Shown: piece by piece, positions 3,968-14,387 of the stretch
Layout: the number at the start of each line of letters is the position of its first letter
Numbering within the stretch: position 1 is the stretch's first letter
IMG/VR virus record: IMGVR_UViG_3300020404_002490
Span: 1 to 22,547 of that record
Length of the DNA stretch: 22,547 bases
DNA from: a virus
Direction: 5' to 3' (one strand)
Position numbers and translations under genes: made by a program
The notes under the pieces: generated by a model
The model's database searches: none
Told to the model about the DNA's origin: nothing
Seen by the model: the letters and a program-made list of their open reading frames with translations, nothing else

Positions 3968-5140
3968 ATGTCAGATATATTTGAATCAAAATGGGGCGAA
4001 ACTAAACAGGCCCTAACCGAAGGTTTAACAGGCAACAAAAAGAAGACTATGGACGTTGTGTTAGAAAACACAAAAAGATACTTGTCTGAGGCTTCAACTG
4101 CTGGTGCAACTAGTGCCGGTAACGTTGCAACGTTAAACAGGGTTATCCTACCAGTAATCAGAAGGGTTATGCCAACTGTGATCGCTAACGAGATCGTAGG
4201 TGTACAACCAATGACTGGTCCTGTAGGACAAATCCACACATTAAGAATAAGATATGCAGACACAGTTGCGTCAAACACGACTGCAGGTGAAGAAGCATTA
4301 TCTCCATTCAAAATTGCGAAAGCATACTCTGGTAACCAGAACAACTCTACTCCAAAAGGTGCATCAACTGCCTCTTTAGAGGGAACACCTGGTAAGAGAT
4401 TATCAATCCAGATCTTGAAACAACCCGTTGAAGCGAAATCTAGAAAATTAAGTGCTAGATGGACATTTGAAGCGGCTCAAGATGCTCAAGCACAGCAAGG
4501 TATCGATGTAGAAGCAGAAATCATGGCGGCATTAGCTCAAGAGATTACTGCAGAAATCGACCAAGAGATCATTGGATCATTAAGAACATTGGCAGGAAGT
4601 GCTAGTGAAACTTTTGACCAAGCGGCTGTGTCAGGTACTGCAACATTCGTTGGTGATGAACACGCGGCTTTGGCTGTGTTAATCAACAGAGTTGCTAACC
4701 AAATCGCAACAAGAACAAGAAGAGGCGCTGGAAACTACGCGGTAGTATCTCCAACTGCTTTAACTATTCTTCAATCAGCAACAACTTCAGCATTTGCAAG
4801 ATCAACTGAAGGTACATTCGAAGCACCTACTAACACAAAATTTGTTGGTACATTAAATGGTGCAATGAGAGTATACACTGACGCTTACGCTTCAGATGGT
4901 ACTTCAGTACTTGTAGGTTACAAAGGTGCAAGTGAGGCAGACGCTCCAGCGTTCTATTGTCCTTACATTCCTTTAATGTCTTCAGGTGTTGTGTTAGATC
5001 CATCTACTTTCGAACCGGTAGTAGGCTTCTTAACTAGATATGGTTATGTAGAGTTAACAAACACTGCATCATCTCTAGGTAACGCGGCTGACTACGTTGG
5101 ATTAGTAGCGGTAACATCTGGAAACTTAAAATTCAAGTAA
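3968..5140 (+). CDS. 23: Major capsid protein gp23
   Basis: A 390-residue major capsid protein of the T4 gp23 family (HK97 fold). Diagnostic segments are VILPVIRRVMPTVIANEIVG followed by VQPMTGPVGQ (about residues 59-88), SARWTFEAAQDAQAQQGID (about 159-177) and a C-terminal region with FLTRYGYVEL. A maturation site of the L-x-E type, YLSE|ASTAG, is predicted after Glu41; T4 gp23 is cut after Glu65. The mature form would be about 349 residues, well below T4 gp23 (521 precursor), suggesting that the gp23 insertion domain is reduced or absent. The ribosome binding site AAGGGGAAAG precedes the ATG. A strong terminator follows 25 bases after the stop. No gp24-like vertex gene follows in this window. 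Confidence 0.96.
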   Translation: MSDIFESKWGETKQALTEGLTGNKKKTMDVVLENTKRYLSEASTAGATSAGNVATLNRVILPVIRRVMPTVIANEIVGVQPMTGPVGQIHTLRIRYADTVASNTTAGEEALSPFKIAKAYSGNQNNSTPKGASTASLEGTPGKRLSIQILKQPVEAKSRKLSARWTFEAAQDAQAQQGIDVEAEIMAALAQEITAEIDQEIIGSLRTLAGSASETFDQAAVSGTATFVGDEHAALAVLINRVANQIATRTRRGAGNYAVVSPTALTILQSATTSAFARSTEGTFEAPTNTKFVGTLNGAMRVYTDAYASDGTSVLVGYKGASEADAPAFYCPYIPLMSSGVVLDPSTFEPVVGFLTRYGYVELTNTASSLGNAADYVGLVAVTSGNLKFK

Positions 5141-5165
5141 GCCAAGGCTTATTTTATTTTCAAAG

Positions 5166-5192
5166 AAAGGCGGCTTTATGTCGCCTTTTTTT
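5166..5192 (+). terminator. Intrinsic terminator after gp23
   Basis: AAAGGCGGC (5166-5174) pairs with GTCGCCTTT (5180-5188) around a TTTAT loop, with one G-U pair, followed by a run of seven T (5186-5192). It closes the head block. Its stem is nearly the same as that of the terminator at 13929-13960. Confidence 0.9.
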
Positions 5193-5198
5193 GTGACT

Positions 5199-5575: not shown

Positions 5576-5603
5576 TATAAAAATCTAGAAATACGATAAC
5601 CTC

Positions 5604-5650
5604 AAGGGTGGTGTGATTAATTTATGGATTGTATTGCACCACCCTTTTTT
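5604..5650 (+). terminator. Intrinsic terminator after the small membrane protein gene
   Basis: AAGGGTGGTG (5604-5613) pairs perfectly with CACCACCCTT (5637-5646). Four further pairs (TGAT with ATTG, including wobbles) are possible inside, and T5645-5650 forms the U-tract. The loop is long (about 15-23 nt). Confidence 0.85.
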
Positions 5651-5678
5651 CTTTGTACTTTATTGTTTTAAAATTTTG

Positions 5679-5686
5679 GTAAATAC
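5679..5686 (+). promoter_or_regulatory. Putative late promoter GTAAATAC
   Basis: The octamer is T4-late-like and lies just after a terminator. A start near 5691 would give a leader of about 97 bases that contains the four hairpins before the gene at 5788. Confidence 0.5.
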
Positions 5687-5690
5687 TATC

Positions 5691-5787
5691 AGTTCAAACG
5701 TGCTTTGACACAAAGTCAAAGACTTATGCGGAAACAAACCGCGTACCCAGGAGAACTGGGATTGGACTCCTAAATAGGAGAAAACAA
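5691..5787 (+). promoter_or_regulatory. Structured 5' leader: four tandem hairpins, upstream ORF and sequestered RBS
   Basis: Four short hairpins follow one another. CTTTGAC/GTCAAAG is at 5703-5709/5715-5721, GCGG/CCGC at 5728-5731/5739-5742, CCCAG/CTGGG at 5746-5750/5756-5760 and CTCCT/AGGAG at 5767-5771/5776-5780. The last AGGAG is the ribosome binding site of the gene at 5788, so hairpin 4 would hide it. A second AGGAG at 5749-5753 could pair with the same CTCCT and free it, but only by breaking hairpin 3. A 15-codon ORF (5726-5773, MRKQTAYPGELGLDS) ends inside hairpin 4, so a ribosome stopping there would open it. The pairings are seen directly; the regulatory role is inferred. It is not a tRNA, and it does not match a riboswitch class I know. 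Confidence 0.55.
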
Positions 5788-6219
5788 ATGGGAAGACCTA
5801 TCAAGAAAAGTAACTTCACATCTGAAGGATCACCGGACGGAATTGCAGGAAGAATTGAAGTATCTGCATATTTTCCAACTGGCGGTTCTCTTCAGCAAAA
5901 TGATAACTCGTTTATCATCTCGCAAAGAGGATCTAAACAGTTCAAGATCCAACAAATGAACGACTCATCAGTTGCTACATACACGTTGGTTGCTAAAGCA
6001 CCAGCAGAATTATCAGCAGGTGAGATGTGTGTGAAAGTTACAATCAGGAATACTGATTCAGGTGTACCACAGGATGCATGGGTAGAAAAGTTCTACAACA
6101 GAACTTTACACTTTGCAGACGCTCAAGGTACAGAAACTGGTTCAGTTACATACTCACTTGGCGCAGAGGCAGGCGAAGATTCAACTGTTGCTGGTCAAGG
6201 TTCAGTAGACGTTATCTAA
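5788..6219 (+). CDS. Possible virion structural (decoration-like) protein, 143 aa
   Basis: A 143-residue protein without Cys-rich or membrane segments apart from one Cys. It starts MGRPIKKSNF, then alternates polar and hydrophobic residues as in a beta-sandwich protein. Segments are GRIEVSAYFPTGGS, FIISQRGSKQFKIQQMNDSS, TYTLVAKAPAELSAGEM and an acidic C-terminus with GSVTYSLGAEAGEDS. I recall proteins opening with MGRPIKK from the structural regions of marine T4-like phages, but I cannot name a proven function; a capsid decoration or other virion protein is an inference from location. It forms its own transcription unit, with a promoter-like box, the unusual hairpin leader upstream and a strong terminator downstream (6236-6267). 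The ribosome binding site AGGAG is 7 bases before the ATG. Confidence 0.7.
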   Translation: MGRPIKKSNFTSEGSPDGIAGRIEVSAYFPTGGSLQQNDNSFIISQRGSKQFKIQQMNDSSVATYTLVAKAPAELSAGEMCVKVTIRNTDSGVPQDAWVEKFYNRTLHFADAQGTETGSVTYSLGAEAGEDSTVAGQGSVDVI

Positions 6220-6235
6220 TAACGCACACGTGCTT

Positions 6236-6267
6236 AAAGGGGGAGTTTTTACACTTCCCCTTTTCTT
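6236..6267 (+). terminator. Intrinsic terminator
   Basis: AAAGGGGGAGT (6236-6246) pairs with ACTTCCCCTTT (6253-6263), with one G-U pair and a six-base loop, followed by TTTTCTTT. It directly abuts the next promoter box. Confidence 0.85.
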
Positions 6268-6275
6268 TATAAATA
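6268..6275 (+). promoter_or_regulatory. Late promoter TATAAATA before the first fibre gene
   Basis: An exact T4 late-promoter octamer. The expected transcript start is near 6281, two bases before the ATG at 6283. No Shine-Dalgarno is present in the CTAGCAA between them. Confidence 0.7.
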
Positions 6276-6282
6276 CTAGCAA

Positions 6283-7542
6283 ATGGCAAAAACAGTACGA
6301 ACATCAGGTGATTACACAATAAAAGCAGGTGATGGTTACAACGCAGGATCCGGTACAAATACGATAAATCTTGACAGTTTAAACGTCAGCATCACTGGTA
6401 ATTTAACAGTTGGTGGTACTTCGTCAACAATCAGTACAACAAACACAGTTATCGAAGATAACATCATCGAATTACAAACAGGAATTTCAGCAAGTTCCAA
6501 TGATGCAGGAATCATCATCGAAAGAGGATCAACAGGTGACAACGCCGCAATAGTTTGGGACGAATCTGCTGACACATTCAAATTAGGAACAACAACTGCC
6601 ACAGGTGCAGACAAATCAGGTGGCATCACTGTCACAGCAGGTGCATTGGAAGTTGGTGCCTTGACAGCAACGACAGGAACGTTCAGTGGTGCACTTACAA
6701 GTGTAGGTTTCACTGTTGAAGGAAACCTAACAGCAGGACAAGTTACTACAAACGAGATTACAGCCAATGGTTCGAACGCGGCCTTAACAGTTGCATCTTC
6801 AGGTACAGGAGATGTAACAATAGATTCGGGTGGTGACCTAATAGTAGACGTTGACAATGCTGATCTAATATTAAAAGATGACGGCACAGAATTTGGTAGA
6901 CTCAGCAGAGTGACGGCAGACTTTGTTATCAAGTCATCGGCACAAGACCAAGATCTTATTTTCAAAGGCAATGACGGCGGTAACACTGTAACTGCATTGA
7001 CATTCGACATGAGCGAGGGCGGCGAAGCAATTTTTGGTGCAGGCATCACTGCAAACAGTTTAACAACAAATACTATAACATCAAATGGATCAAATGCAGA
7101 ATTATCTTTACAAGCAAGTGGTACAGGTGATGTTGTTATTAGTGCATTAAGAGTAAATGGTACAACATTAGATTCAGCAGATTCCACAAAAATTACAGTG
7201 GCAGAAGATGTAGATGTCACAGGTACTTTATTCTCTCGAGGAAATGTTTATGGTGTGCAAACGCTGACTGGCTCAGGTAGCACAGAGGTCATAAATTTGA
7301 CAGACACTGTCACACTACTAGTTACAACAGGATCCAACCAGCAATTTTCGTTGGCAGATGGTGTGGAAGGACAACTTAAAATAATTTCAATGAAGACAGA
7401 CGCTGGCGATGGAATAGTCACTCCTGCAAACTTTGTGAACGGAACCAACATAACATTCAATGATGTAGAGGACACCGTAACAATGCTTTATCAATCAACT
7501 GGTTGGGTATTATTGGCACGTCAAAATGCTGTTGTAGGATAA
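6283..7542 (+). CDS. Fibre-like structural protein A (repeat-rich, 419 aa)
   Basis: A 419-residue Thr/Ser/Gly/Asn-rich protein of beta-helix or beta-prism type. A module around residues 35-115 contains GNLTVGGTSSTIS, VIEDNIIEL, DAGIIIERGSTGDNAAI and WDESADTFKLGTTTA. This module recurs in the fibre protein at 9662 and, more diverged, at 12892. Further units with TNxITxNGSNA-L-L-ASGTGDV appear twice (about 155-180 and 258-285). The C-terminal part (about 325-419) is less repetitive and ends in MLYQSTGWVLLARQ. Such repeats are typical of tail-fibre or whisker-like proteins of marine T4-like phages that extend from the virion and may contact the host. The exact place in the virion is unknown. The start codon follows a TATAAATA box closely, with no ribosome binding site. 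Confidence 0.7.
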   Translation: MAKTVRTSGDYTIKAGDGYNAGSGTNTINLDSLNVSITGNLTVGGTSSTISTTNTVIEDNIIELQTGISASSNDAGIIIERGSTGDNAAIVWDESADTFKLGTTTATGADKSGGITVTAGALEVGALTATTGTFSGALTSVGFTVEGNLTAGQVTTNEITANGSNAALTVASSGTGDVTIDSGGDLIVDVDNADLILKDDGTEFGRLSRVTADFVIKSSAQDQDLIFKGNDGGNTVTALTFDMSEGGEAIFGAGITANSLTTNTITSNGSNAELSLQASGTGDVVISALRVNGTTLDSADSTKITVAEDVDVTGTLFSRGNVYGVQTLTGSGSTEVINLTDTVTLLVTTGSNQQFSLADGVEGQLKIISMKTDAGDGIVTPANFVNGTNITFNDVEDTVTMLYQSTGWVLLARQNAVVG

Positions 7543-9661: not shown

Positions 9662-12600
9662 ATGGCAGATAAAACACCGGTACGAGTAGTCTTTAATGAA
9701 TCTAATGTGGCCACGGGTATGGCAGAGTTCCAATCGGGCGACACGGTTGCAGTAGCAAACGGTGGTACAGGTCTTAGTTCAATAGGTTCAGCGGGACAGG
9801 TTTTAAAAGTAAATGCCGCAGGAAATGGATTAGAATTTGGTGCAGAAGGTGATATATCAATCACAAATTTAGTTGCACCAACAAACGCAGATTTAACATT
9901 TACAACATCAGGCACTGGAAATATTGTATTAGATGCAGTAACATTAAATGGTACGACTTTCAGCGCCGCGGATTCAACACAAATTACATTCGCAGAAAAT
10001 GTCGACGTCACTGGCACTCTAGGAGTTGCAGGTGCATTAAGTTCTTCGACAAGTTTAGCATTGGCATCAGGGGCAACAGTCACAGGCATTGCAGACGAAG
10101 ACAACATGTCAAGCAACAGTAATACGCTTTTGGCAACACAACAGTCAATCAAAGCCTACGTTGACAGTGAGGTGGGAAGTATTTCCGCCACATCTATTGT
10201 ACAAAACAATTCAAACATAACTGTTGCAGATACTGGAACTGGTACAATCACAGTAACAGTAGACGGATCCACTATTGGAACTTTTAACGCATCAGGTTTG
10301 CAACTAGGCGGTTCGGGTGCAAGAGTTACGACTGTATTAGATGAAGATAATTTAAGCACTGACAGTGCAACTGCACTTGCTACACAACAATCTATCAAAG
10401 CATATGTTGACGCACAAATTACAGCAGAAGACCTTGACTTCCAAGCGGACTCGGGTGGAGCATTATCAATTGACCTAGATTCAGAAACAATGACGTTTAC
10501 TGGTGGAACAGGTATTGACACATCGGGATCAGGCAACGCAGTTACATTTGCAATAGATTCAACAGTGGCAACACTGACAGGTTCTCAAACACTTACAAAT
10601 AAAGTTTTAACTACACCAACTATAAACGGTGCTACCATGACGGGTAACGTAACTGTTGACAACTTGACTCTAAATGATAACATAATTTCTTCAAGTTCAA
10701 ATGCAGATCTAATACTTGATCCTTCAGGCACAGGAAATGTTAAATTAAACGCGGCAACAGACGTAACCGGTGCAGTAACAATTACGACAACAACAACAGA
10801 TGCATCACTTTTAATCACGACGACAGAGGCCTCAAACAGTGCCGCCCCTGTAATTGAACTGAAAAGAAACAGTTCAAGTCCTGCCGACGCAGACTACATT
10901 GGAAGATTAACTTTCAAAGGAGAGAATGACGCGGACCAGGCAGTAACGTATGCAAGAATATCAGGAAAAATTTTAGATGCATCAGATGGTTCTGAAGATG
11001 GTGCCATAGAATTCAACACAATAAAAGCAGGTTCAAGCACTATTTCTGCTAGACTTAACAGCGACGAACTTAAACTATTAAACGGCACATCACTAGATGT
11101 AGCAGGATCAGTCACAATAGCAGGAGACTTGAATGTGACGGGTAGCACAACAACTGTCAACACATCAAACACTACCATTGCTGACAACATCATAGAATTA
11201 AATTCAGGAATATCTCAGTCATTGAACGATGCGGGTATCATAATAGAAAGAGGATCAACAGGCGACAATGCGGCCATACTATGGGACGAGTCAGCAGACA
11301 AGTTCATTATGGGTACGACAACTGCAACGGCAAGTGATAAGTCAGGTGGTGTCTCGGTAACGACAGGTACATTGGTTGCCAACATAGAAGGTAATGCAAC
11401 AGGTAACGCGGCGACTGCCACTGCCCTTGAAACTGCAAGGAACATAGCAGGACAGAGTTTCGACGGAACAGGCAACATAACGATTGCGTCAACTGACCTA
11501 TCGAATACAAGTGCTATCACACTCAACACAGCATCACAGACTTTAACAAACAAAACACTAACAAGTCCGACAATAAATTCACCTACTATTAACACACCAA
11601 CAGTGCTTGGTGCAATGGTTTCGACTTCTGTCACAACTAACGACATAACAACAAATGGTTCCAACGCTGATTTAGATTTAGCACCGCAAGGCACAGGAAA
11701 AGTTAAATTTTATGGAACATATACTCTTCCAACATCGGATGGAGACAACGGACAAGCACTTGTAACAGACGGATCAGGGACACTATCTTTTGGTACAGTG
11801 GCTGATGCATCTGCCAGTGATGACAGTGCCGCAGTTGTTATATCAGACAAACGTATTACATCAACTGCGAGAACAGTAGATTCATTCCACAGCAGTTTTC
11901 AAGACAGTGTTTTGTACTATGTTGTATCAAATGATCACAACGAAGACTGTATAAACGTGCAAAAAGTTTCTGTGTGTCACAATGATTCAGGGTCATTCAT
12001 AACTTCTGCAGGTGCACAATCAAAAGCGTCGGCCACAATGACGGCGTTCACAACGTCCTTAGACAATGACATGGTCAGGGTAAAGGCGGCAAGTTCAAAT
12101 GCAGTTGGAGGCACATTATCTTTTTACAAATTTGGACTAGGTGATAACACATCAACAGGAACATCAGGAAATATTATTATATCACAGAATACAGATGTTG
12201 ACTCGGCATCAGAATCACTGGTAAGTTTTGCTCATGCAACTTTTAGAGGTGCAAAATTGTTTATATCAATTAATAATGCTTCTAAAACAGAAGTAGGAAA
12301 CGTGGAAGCCTTGGTTGTACATGACGGATCTGATGCTTATATTTTACAATATGGCGGCATACAATCAGGAAGTGATCCACTGCTTACGCTAACGGCGGCC
12401 ATAGACGGAAGTAACGTTGTTGTATCAGCGGCAGGACTAGAAACAAACCTGAGAGTGACTACACATGCAATCATGTTGAAGGACACAATGGTATCAAATG
12501 ACGGCACTTATGCCAATGCTGAAGCCATTGCACCAGTAACTATTTCGTCAACAGCAACAGAAATAGACACACTAGTTGAAACAACTAGCAACGGTGCAGT

Positions 12601-12847
12601 ATACTACACAGTAAGTAAAAATGCATCAGAAGGATCTTTTGCAGTGAATGAAGTTTTCGTTGCACTTGGATCAGGAGAGATAGCAGTAGCAAGTGGTCCG
12701 TATGTGAGTACTAAAGGCACGAACCAATTGACATTCTCTACTGACTATAAAGATGACGTTGAGAACACAGGACAACTATTTGCGGCATCAACATCAGGTG
12801 CCAGTACTACTGTTAGCGCCTACAGAATTAATCTACTAGCCAAGTAA
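9662..12847 (+). CDS. Large fibre-like protein D (1061 aa)
   Basis: The largest fibre gene. Motifs common in marine phage fibres are visible. DEDNMSSNSNTLLATQQSIK and DEDNLSTDSATALATQQSIK (each followed by AYVD) form a duplicated unit. SQTLTNKVLTTPTING and SQTLTNKTLTSPTINSP form another pair. The DAGIIIERGSTGDNAAI module, shared with the gene at 6283, appears near residue 520. YTLPTSDGDNGQALVTDGSG, shared with the gene at 8451, follows near 682. The last about 330 residues hold three related domains of about 95-105 residues, each with a pattern like 'S-x-YYxVS-N ... V-EVxV-H' and ending in a 'Y-x-I/F-x-L' strand. The order suggests a long beta-structured shaft with three C-terminal globular domains that could bind a receptor; that is inference. 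No catalytic motif or signal peptide is seen. The start is read from a leader with only a weak ribosome binding site. Confidence 0.75.
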   Translation: MADKTPVRVVFNESNVATGMAEFQSGDTVAVANGGTGLSSIGSAGQVLKVNAAGNGLEFGAEGDISITNLVAPTNADLTFTTSGTGNIVLDAVTLNGTTFSAADSTQITFAENVDVTGTLGVAGALSSSTSLALASGATVTGIADEDNMSSNSNTLLATQQSIKAYVDSEVGSISATSIVQNNSNITVADTGTGTITVTVDGSTIGTFNASGLQLGGSGARVTTVLDEDNLSTDSATALATQQSIKAYVDAQITAEDLDFQADSGGALSIDLDSETMTFTGGTGIDTSGSGNAVTFAIDSTVATLTGSQTLTNKVLTTPTINGATMTGNVTVDNLTLNDNIISSSSNADLILDPSGTGNVKLNAATDVTGAVTITTTTTDASLLITTTEASNSAAPVIELKRNSSSPADADYIGRLTFKGENDADQAVTYARISGKILDASDGSEDGAIEFNTIKAGSSTISARLNSDELKLLNGTSLDVAGSVTIAGDLNVTGSTTTVNTSNTTIADNIIELNSGISQSLNDAGIIIERGSTGDNAAILWDESADKFIMGTTTATASDKSGGVSVTTGTLVANIEGNATGNAATATALETARNIAGQSFDGTGNITIASTDLSNTSAITLNTASQTLTNKTLTSPTINSPTINTPTVLGAMVSTSVTTNDITTNGSNADLDLAPQGTGKVKFYGTYTLPTSDGDNGQALVTDGSGTLSFGTVADASASDDSAAVVISDKRITSTARTVDSFHSSFQDSVLYYVVSNDHNEDCINVQKVSVCHNDSGSFITSAGAQSKASATMTAFTTSLDNDMVRVKAASSNAVGGTLSFYKFGLGDNTSTGTSGNIIISQNTDVDSASESLVSFAHATFRGAKLFISINNASKTEVGNVEALVVHDGSDAYILQYGGIQSGSDPLLTLTAAIDGSNVVVSAAGLETNLRVTTHAIMLKDTMVSNDGTYANAEAIAPVTISSTATEIDTLVETTSNGAVYYTVSKNASEGSFAVNEVFVALGSGEIAVASGPYVSTKGTNQLTFSTDYKDDVENTGQLFAASTSGASTTVSAYRINLLAK

Positions 12848-12891: not shown

Positions 12892-13902
12892 ATGACAACA
12901 CGTAACTTTAGAGTTAACAACGGTATTGAAGTAGGCGATATTACGATATCAGCATCTACTAACAAAATTACCGGCGGAAGCACAGCGGCACCATCGGGAG
13001 ACGGTGACTTTGCAAACAAAAAATATGTTGATGATTCAATTGCGGCAGTTTCGACAACTGCGATATCGCAAGGGAACAGCAACGTAACAGTATCAGATTC
13101 TGGAACTGGATCAGTAACAACAACAGTTGACGGTAACACAGAAATGACAGTCACTGATGTGGGTGTTAGGATACACGGAAACTTAACAGTAGACGGTACA
13201 CAAACAATCCTTAACACAACGACATTATCGGTTGAAGATAACATTATCGAAGTAAACAGAAACGTTTCTTCAAATTCTGGAATGCCAACATTATCAGGCT
13301 TGAAAATTAACAGAGGTGACGCATCAAGTGCCACAGAAAACGATCTTTTCTGGGTATGGGATGAATCATTTGCAGATGACGGAACAACGATCCATGGAAA
13401 CTCAGGTGGTGCCTTTACAGCAGGTAGAGGACAGAACCCGGGCGACATCGATGCACTAGTAGACATCAAATGTAACGTAGTACACGCCCTAGCAACTTCG
13501 GCTCAGTACGCGGACGTTGCCGAGCGTTTCGAAGCAGACGCTCCAATGACAGCAGGTGCAGTGGTAGAAGTAGGTGGCTCAGCAGAAATCACAGAAACAA
13601 CATCAGATTTATCTGAGAACGTTTTTGGTGTTATCTCTGATCAACCGGCATATGCCATGAACGCGGCGGCAGGTTCAAGTGAGACTCACCCATTTGTAGC
13701 AATGACAGGTAGAACACCAGTTAGAGTTACAGGTGCGGTAACAAAAGGTCAAAGACTTGTTACTTCAAGTATAAAAGGTTGTGCTAGAGCAGTAGCGGCA
13801 GGTGAGTCAATTTCACCTTTCAACGTTATTGGTAGAGCATTAGAAAGTTCAACAGACGCAGGTATCAAATTGGTAAACTGTGCAGTGAGAACTAACAACT
13901 AA
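12892..13902 (+). CDS. Fibre-like protein E with Peptidase_G2-like C-terminal region (336 aa)
   Basis: Residues 1-110 are fibre-like (NNGIEVGDITISASTNKITG, KKYVDDSIAAVSTTAI). A diverged copy of the module in the genes at 6283 and 9662 follows (LSVEDNIIEVNRNVSS, WVWDESF, about 115-165). The C-terminal part, about 200-336, begins ALATSAQYADVAERFEADAP and continues with FGVISDQPAYAMNAAAG, VAMTGRTPVRVTGAV, KGQRLVTSS and ending RTNN. The 'QYADxAExFEAD ... GVIS-P-Y-MN' pattern resembles the C-terminal intramolecular-chaperone/autoprocessing region (Pfam Peptidase_G2-like) found in phage fibres. If so, it may assist trimerisation and be cleaved off. No catalytic residue is assigned here. A strong terminator follows 27 bases after the stop. 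Confidence 0.7.
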   Translation: MTTRNFRVNNGIEVGDITISASTNKITGGSTAAPSGDGDFANKKYVDDSIAAVSTTAISQGNSNVTVSDSGTGSVTTTVDGNTEMTVTDVGVRIHGNLTVDGTQTILNTTTLSVEDNIIEVNRNVSSNSGMPTLSGLKINRGDASSATENDLFWVWDESFADDGTTIHGNSGGAFTAGRGQNPGDIDALVDIKCNVVHALATSAQYADVAERFEADAPMTAGAVVEVGGSAEITETTSDLSENVFGVISDQPAYAMNAAAGSSETHPFVAMTGRTPVRVTGAVTKGQRLVTSSIKGCARAVAAGESISPFNVIGRALESSTDAGIKLVNCAVRTNN

Positions 13903-13928: not shown

Positions 13929-13960
13929 AAAAAGGCGGCTTTCGGGTCGCCTTTTTTTTT
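13929..13960. terminator. Bidirectional terminator between convergent genes
   Basis: A 12-bp stem (13929-13940 with 13945-13956, core AAGGCGGC/GTCGCCTT with G-U pairs) has a TTCG loop. The plus strand continues with T to 13960. The minus-strand read has a run of T from A13929-13933. The Nudix stop codon (13959-13961) overlaps its edge. It ends both the fibre block and the minus-strand unit. Confidence 0.85.
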
Positions 13961-14387
13961 AGGTGATAAGATCTAATATTGTCTGCAACTTTCCTTTAAT
14001 TGCTTTATTATTCAGCGTGTTCTTAAGTCCCATGTGAAGATTTTTTGGCCAGCATTCAAAAGCACACCAACAATATCCGTTGTGTTCTTCATTTAATTTT
14101 GGAATAAATTCGGATTCAATTGCAATAAGATAGGTATGAAAATAAAATTTTTGGTCATTTGAAGTAAACATTTCTAGGGGAATTACTTTCTTGAATTTTG
14201 GCGTGCCGCCCACTTCTTCTTCAATTTCTCTCTTCAGTCCTTCAAAAGCACTTTCAGTAAATTTTGATTTACCACCTACCAATCCCCACAGGCCTTGGGT
14301 CTTTTTGTCGGTCCTTTGTAGAAAAAGGAAACGTTTAGTGCTTGTTGAATAGAATAGAGCACCTGAACAAATTATATTTTCTTTCAT
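13959..14387 (-). CDS. Nudix hydrolase
   Basis: A 142-residue protein with the Nudix box G-x5-E-x7-RE-U-x-EE-x-G at residues 39-60 (GKSKFTE, then SAFEGLK, then REIEEEVG). Before it is FLFLQRTDKKTQGLWGLVGG, typical of the substrate-side strand and loop. Nudix enzymes cleave nucleoside diphosphates linked to another group; phage members act on ADP-ribose, dinucleoside polyphosphates or damaged NTPs, or decap RNA. The substrate cannot be read from the sequence. The residue after the box is Gly rather than a hydrophobic one, a mild deviation. It is the last gene of the minus-strand unit but has its own near-consensus sigma70-type promoter (14393-14421), whose predicted start falls on the ATG. The start is chosen at the only Met before the domain. 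Confidence 0.92.
   Translation of the reverse strand: MKENIICSGALFYSTSTKRFLFLQRTDKKTQGLWGLVGGKSKFTESAFEGLKREIEEEVGGTPKFKKVIPLEMFTSNDQKFYFHTYLIAIESEFIPKLNEEHNGYCWCAFECWPKNLHMGLKNTLNNKAIKGKLQTILDLIT

Follow-up and report, generated by a model that had tools for sequence, protein, structure and literature searches.

A clade-level variant of freshwater-2 RNA precedes a capsid-cluster gene of T4-like phages and probably controls its translation initiation

The leader of a 143-amino-acid protein gene in the capsid cluster (5788–6219, plus strand) of the window, as we call the whole 22,547-nucleotide stretch of viral DNA analysed here, is, judged by its sequence, a clade variant of freshwater-2, a known, unexplained RNA family, and it probably controls translation initiation of that gene by hiding the gene's own start. 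Comparison with the covariance model of freshwater-2 (Rfam RF02980) returned a full-length match at 5704–5790 on the plus strand, covering model positions 1–84 of 84 with 79.2 bits, as compared with a gathering cut-off of 49.9 bits. The sequence hallmarks of the family are present as well, that is, a hairpin 2 of the form UUAUGCnG/CnGCGUA, a hairpin 3 with an AGAAC loop and, further downstream, a Shine–Dalgarno (SD) sequence and AUG. Family and window leader hence share hairpins 1–3, the AGAAC loop, the linker, the SD and the AUG; in the Rfam consensus, however, the linker is unpaired and hairpin 4 is missing, and the model ends at the AUG, so that it cannot display a pseudoknot with the start codon. 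RF02980 is catalogued as a candidate cis-regulator, and the sources searched state no gene partner, phage type or mechanism for it. The motif is named in no paper found by our literature search, its original description lying beyond that search; freshwater-2 was reportedly described by Weinberg et al. in 2017. The original prediction had proposed a cis-regulatory structured leader within a structural cluster, a view that the RF02980 match supports, but it had missed the family identity. What had been an orphan Rfam family can thereby be linked to a partner gene located downstream of that for the major capsid protein, to a type of phage and to a promoter, and its mechanism becomes testable.

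Folding of positions 5700–5800 gave a minimum free energy of −33.0 kcal/mol, as compared with −17.3 ± 3.1 kcal/mol for shuffled sequences (z = −5.0; 0 of 200 shuffles), and all four hairpins that had been proposed to stand in a row are indeed there, in a fold far from chance. Hairpin 1 (plus strand, 5703–5721) pairs CTTTGAC (5703–5709) with GTCAAAG (5715–5721) in a stem of 7 bp closed by an ACAAA loop; it is optional and variable in the family, its stem adjoining hairpin 2 in 83% of leaders versus 34% after shuffling. Hairpin 2 (plus strand, 5725–5745; TATGCGG 5725–5731 with CCGCGTA 5739–5745), which is part of the Rfam consensus, is the most conserved element of the leader, its invariance among the leaders that we collected by pattern scans of IMG/VR (191 at first, later 206 unique ones) being partly imposed by the search pattern. 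Where hairpin 2 does vary, it covaries: across 100 sequences its sixth pair is GC in 64, AU in 19 and UA in 17, and its fifth pair changes from C-G to the compensatory G-C in a set collected by protein similarity (UAUGGGG/CCCCGUA). Hairpin 3 (plus strand, 5746–5760) pairs CCCAG (5746–5750) with CUGGG (5756–5760) around the loop GAGAA, the family loop being nUAGAAC, and four of its four pairs vary on both sides across the 100 sequences. Pairing is kept in 93% of cells of this alignment, and the covariation score of 0.382 compares with 0.093 for shuffled and at most 0.058 for slid alignments. The compensatory changes that had been expected for all four stems were thus strong in hairpin 3 and present at the variable pairs of hairpin 2, while hairpin 4 lies outside the Rfam consensus and is kept within a clade. 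On this comparative evidence, hairpins 2 and 3 are the conserved core of the leader. As a separate matter, recognition of hairpin 2 through a uS15-type U-G/C-G motif was considered and set aside, the order of the pairs differing from that in the uS15 site.

Complementarily, we used protein-guided searches, which choose samples without an RNA pattern (with one protein as the query for the larger set). The leader stood in front of the gene at four out of four loci in the first sample and at 34 out of 34 loci, representing 21 distinct leaders, in the second. Searching 20 whole records revealed exactly one copy in 18 of them, two in one and none in one short contig, indicating that the element belongs to one gene rather than to all structural genes. 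The genomes carrying the family are those of uncultivated, aquatic T4-like phages. Among cultured phages, we found no significant leader match and no relative of any of three MGRP proteins, the one of the window and two others; a freshwater-2-like leader in Pelagibacter phage HTVC008M (L222:27394–27477) scored 23 bits, under the cut-off, stands before the unrelated gp136 and may be a remote relative or a chance match. Among 84,980 species genomes of bacteria and archaea, a pattern search returned eight pattern hits, none of them freshwater-2.

A metabolite riboswitch whose aptamer consists of hairpins 2 and 3 would also be expected to show conserved bases within and beside two helices ahead of an expression platform, and other cis-regulatory RNAs (glnA, wcaG, manA and PhotoRC-II) occur in T4-like cyanophages (PMC9964418, PMC10665884). 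We nevertheless regard this explanation as highly improbable, given that the gene encodes a capsid-cluster protein rather than a metabolic one and that no other context was found, the 84,980 species genomes yielding no true match with the pattern used.

The gene itself is defined by its first residues. An ORF starting with MGRP follows 184 out of 191 leaders, with a MAR start in most of the others, and a profile built from short MGRP proteins detected one shared domain in 186 out of 194 proteins, so that the downstream ORFs constitute one gene family. Its members range from about 115 to 512 amino acids; in many long MGRP proteins, the N-terminal peptide is followed by an insert whose length varies and which, in proteins of more than 200 amino acids, for example L037, L054 and L100, sits between this conserved peptide and the shared domain. 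The 143-amino-acid protein of the window belongs to no Pfam or PHROG family and has no significant PDB match by sequence or fold; its AF2 model reached a pLDDT of 86, and most of the viral proteins that it matches in fold are phage proteins without a name. Codon 2 almost always specifies Gly or Ala. Arg3 (window 5788–5799 and relatives) is encoded by CGU in 90, AGA in 83, CGC in 22 and CGA in seven MGRP proteins, and this retention through synonymous codons indicates that the short N-terminal peptide is maintained at the protein level. The G-R-P sequence resembles the core of AT-hooks.

The leader occupies a T4-like structural cluster, with the genes for the prohead protease and the major capsid protein gp23 (3968–5140, plus strand; Pfam Gp23, E = 1.7e-99) just upstream and a tail sheath gene at the far end of the window. 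A gp23 homologue was found in the loci of 134 out of 191 leaders; in the 45 locus rows listed, it lay without exception upstream of the leader and on the leader's strand. The late-type box that had been suggested in front of the leader could be verified as a T4-type late promoter −10 box, TAAATA, at 5680–5685 on the plus strand; the 80 nt preceding hairpin 2 contain the same hexamer in 199 out of 200 leaders, as compared with a shuffled expectation of 5%.

This placement distinguishes the leader from a known T4 arrangement. The T4 genes e, soc, 49 and I-TevI hide their SD or AUG within an RNA helix, and in gene e the late promoters are placed such that late transcripts lose the 5' arm and escape the helix (PMC3014915). 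The MGRP leader resembles these cases in that a T4-type phage gene has its translation start paired in the mRNA, here by prediction. Unlike in gene e, however, the late promoter (5680–5685) lies upstream of the hairpins, which begin at 5703, so that late mRNAs carry them and escape in the manner of T4 late transcripts does not apply. Hairpins closely following a late promoter and retention of a strong SD (AGGAGAAAACAAAUG) could also mean that the leader is constitutive, merely stabilizing the late mRNA or fixing its expression level without any switch. We consider this unlikely, as it accounts neither for the pairing to the start codon and the way in which this pairing covaries with codon 2 nor for the fixed loop sequences of hairpins 2 and 3.

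The putative pairing of the start codon emerged from the hairpin-2 loop. In most relatives, this loop ends with CCCR next to the 3' arm, complementary to UGGG at bases 2–5 of the coding sequence (CDS), and CCCR loops also prevail in the protein-guided samples. A four-base match between the loop and CDS bases 2–5 was present in 60% of 206 unique leaders versus 29% with shuffled loops, and dropped to 16% at the next offset and to 0–6% at all others; about 40% of leaders are without such a match. The loop follows the type of start: CCCR loops occurred in 97 out of 171 AUGGG leaders and in none of 35 AUGGC leaders, and GCCR or GUCR loops in 12 of the 35 AUGGC leaders and in none of the 171 AUGGG leaders. 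Within the NCCR motif, the base facing CDS base 5 was C in 96 and G in no AUGGG leaders, but G in 11 and C in no AUGGC leaders; several AUGGCU leaders have the loop sequence AGC. Comparing loops with those of the leaders whose AUGGG proteins are nearest revealed GCCA versus CCCG (L299/L093) and GCCA versus CCCA (L246/L094 and L175/L068). When loops were permuted among leaders, the 73 strict matches observed exceeded every one of 1000 permutations (mean 55, maximum 63). Fisher values for loop versus start type (about 1e-10) overstate independence, as the gp23 tree holds few independent changes: where the loop type is clear, the start type changed three times, as often as the loop type, with all three matching and all comparable pairs changing in the same direction, too few for a sign test.

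The layout fits a normal H-type pseudoknot clamping the start codon, with a loop 1 of mostly 2–3 nt, a loop 2 of mostly 0–1 nt (up to the 3' arm) and a loop 3 of 28–45 nt that contains hairpin 3 and the SD. At 4 bp, the putative helix is short and perhaps only one component of a more extensive recognition. Its recurrence across the leaders suggests a family-level feature that is new relative to the Rfam model, and the pairings described previously for this DNA had not included it. If true, a start-codon pseudoknot coevolving with codon 2 would be, next to T4 gene 32, a rare viral case of control through a leader pseudoknot, and could help account for the near-constant Gly or Ala at codon 2.

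The window itself cannot form this pseudoknot, its hairpin-2 loop (5732–5738) being AAACAAA, without CCCR. Here, hairpin 4 (plus strand, 5767–5780) pairs CUCCU (5767–5771) with the SD AGGAG (5776–5780), and the SD was 87–100% paired in the predicted ensemble. Among 61 distinct leaders with long linkers, the SD was paired with a probability above 0.5 in 62%, as compared with 21% when linkers were shuffled; among 92 distinct short-linker leaders, it was paired in 2%. The proposed sequestration of the SD by CTCCT therefore applies, at the level of prediction, to most of the window's clade, in which pairing is kept with differing arms (CUCCU, CUCC, CUCU and CCUU). Compensatory changes are not expected at the SD, since the SD itself is barely free to vary. 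These comparisons indicate that hairpin 4 is real and maintained, yet clade-specific. Leaders with a strong hairpin 4 mostly have no pseudoknot (19 without, four with), whereas the remaining leaders mostly have one; this inverse relation does not reach significance in a test that corrects for the gp23 tree. Three leaders, L001 (3191–3259), L166 and L167, have neither hairpin 4 nor CCCR, and their hairpin-2 loop ends with UCCU, complementary to the AGGA of the SD; a loop–SD pseudoknot is thus a possible third route, seen three times only. For the hairpin-2 loop of the window's clade, which is A-rich, the linker sequence AUUGG was evaluated as another partner downstream; it performed no better than permutation and was discarded.

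Family membership, hairpins 1–3, the gene and promoter context, the covariation of loop and start and the clade-level keeping of hairpin 4 can all be read from the sequences; from them we infer repression, its timing and its trigger. Freshwater-2 would be the 5' leader of a late mRNA, that of one gene in the capsid cluster. In most relatives, CCCR of the hairpin-2 loop would pair with UGGG, forming an H-type pseudoknot over the start codon, while in the window's clade the complementarity of loop and start is weak or lost and hairpin 4 would cover the SD instead. Translation of the MGRP gene would stay low as long as nothing opens or tunes the clamp; most plausibly, a factor that reads hairpins 2 and 3 would do so, and this could be MGRP, the encoded protein, whose feedback would be the trigger that we prefer. 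More tentatively, and with less than even confidence, we propose that codon 2 changed from Gly to Ala together with a matching loop change, that the SD hairpin replaced the pseudoknot in the window's clade, and that one regulator, probably the encoded protein, reads both forms, which would be interchangeable means of closing one and the same start.

The identity of such a factor leads to a closely related explanation, namely that hairpins 2 and 3 are an operator bound by a phage or host protein, possibly MGRP, with the start pairings as its output. Conservation of sequence as well as pairing in hairpin 2 and the nUAGAAC loop argues for it, as do the single copy in 18 out of 20 records before one gene family and the synonymous retention of Arg3 as a possible basic contact; the lack of a significant match between the AF2 model of the MGRP protein and solved structures speaks against it. 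Autogenous control through pseudoknots also has precedents. The protein encoded by T4 gene 32 binds a pseudoknot in its 5' leader and represses translation, and the review of this case regards it as perhaps the sole viral pseudoknot with a known role in translational autoregulation (PMC3014915); uS4 (alpha operon) and uS15 (rpsO) use regulatory pseudoknots at the initiation site of the controlled mRNA (PMC10931766). With gene 32, the MGRP leader would share a leader pseudoknot, putative here, under translational control in a T4-type phage gene, although here the start codon would lie within the helix of the pseudoknot; with uS4 and uS15, it would share a putative pseudoknot at the initiation site of its own mRNA, but those are bacterial ribosomal-protein genes, and the likeness that we see is one of layout rather than of sequence. 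An operator of this kind is compatible with, and partly contained in, control of initiation by start hiding, our best explanation, and as an account in its own right we deem it possible, if somewhat doubtful.

The original prediction had left the choice between a translational switch, an attenuator and a protein-binding RNA, and a leader controlling initiation is what the analysis retains of it, as opposed to a uORF attenuator or a switch between two partners. In the former, ribosomes translating a 15-codon ORF (plus strand, ATG at 5726 to TAA at 5771–5773) would unfold the hairpins and free the SD. The ORF exists at 5726–5773, and its AUG is found in all pattern-collected relatives; this AUG, however, belongs to the stem of hairpin 2, which is itself conserved in sequence, and no SD precedes the ORF in the window. 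Among relatives, neither frame, length, stop nor peptide is conserved: the ORF comprises 2 to over 30 codons, is found in all three frames relative to the main start (62/69/75), and has a stop that may precede the SD, follow it or fall within the gene. MRKQTA* occurs alongside 15-codon forms within the CUCCU clade, and in the RF02980 consensus the frame closes after six codons. Relatives thus lose the ORF while the gene stays intact, which counts against its regulatory role; we judge it not to be a gene and rate the attenuator as extremely unlikely. As to the two-partner switch, the second AGGAG (5749–5753) is present as described, but it does not compete as an alternative partner of CUCCU, the best structure with this pairing reaching −36.3 versus −44.8 kcal/mol, that is 8.5 kcal/mol worse. 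The AGGAG in hairpin 3 is moreover not general, being found only in part of one clade, and two exclusive folds are thus not supported.

Several further features of the window lie outside the leader. Hairpins followed by T-runs at 5164–5196, 5600–5652 and 6238–6266, after gp23, a 77-amino-acid gene and the MGRP gene, respectively, look like intrinsic terminators; if they are, each of these three genes would be its own transcription unit. A second late-type box (TATAAATACTAG) lies at about 6270–6280, just upstream of a 419-amino-acid gene. Within the structural cluster, a Nudix hydrolase gene is encoded on the minus strand (13959–14387), and in the loci of 26 related leaders, Nudix homologues are found downstream of the MGRP gene in the opposite orientation. 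Finally, the large proteins encoded at 6283–7542, 9662–12847 and 12892–13902 have in common a repeated segment like NTxxxxDNIIELxxGIS..NDAGIIIERGSTGDNAAIxWDESAD, which recalls a repeated fibre or structural module.
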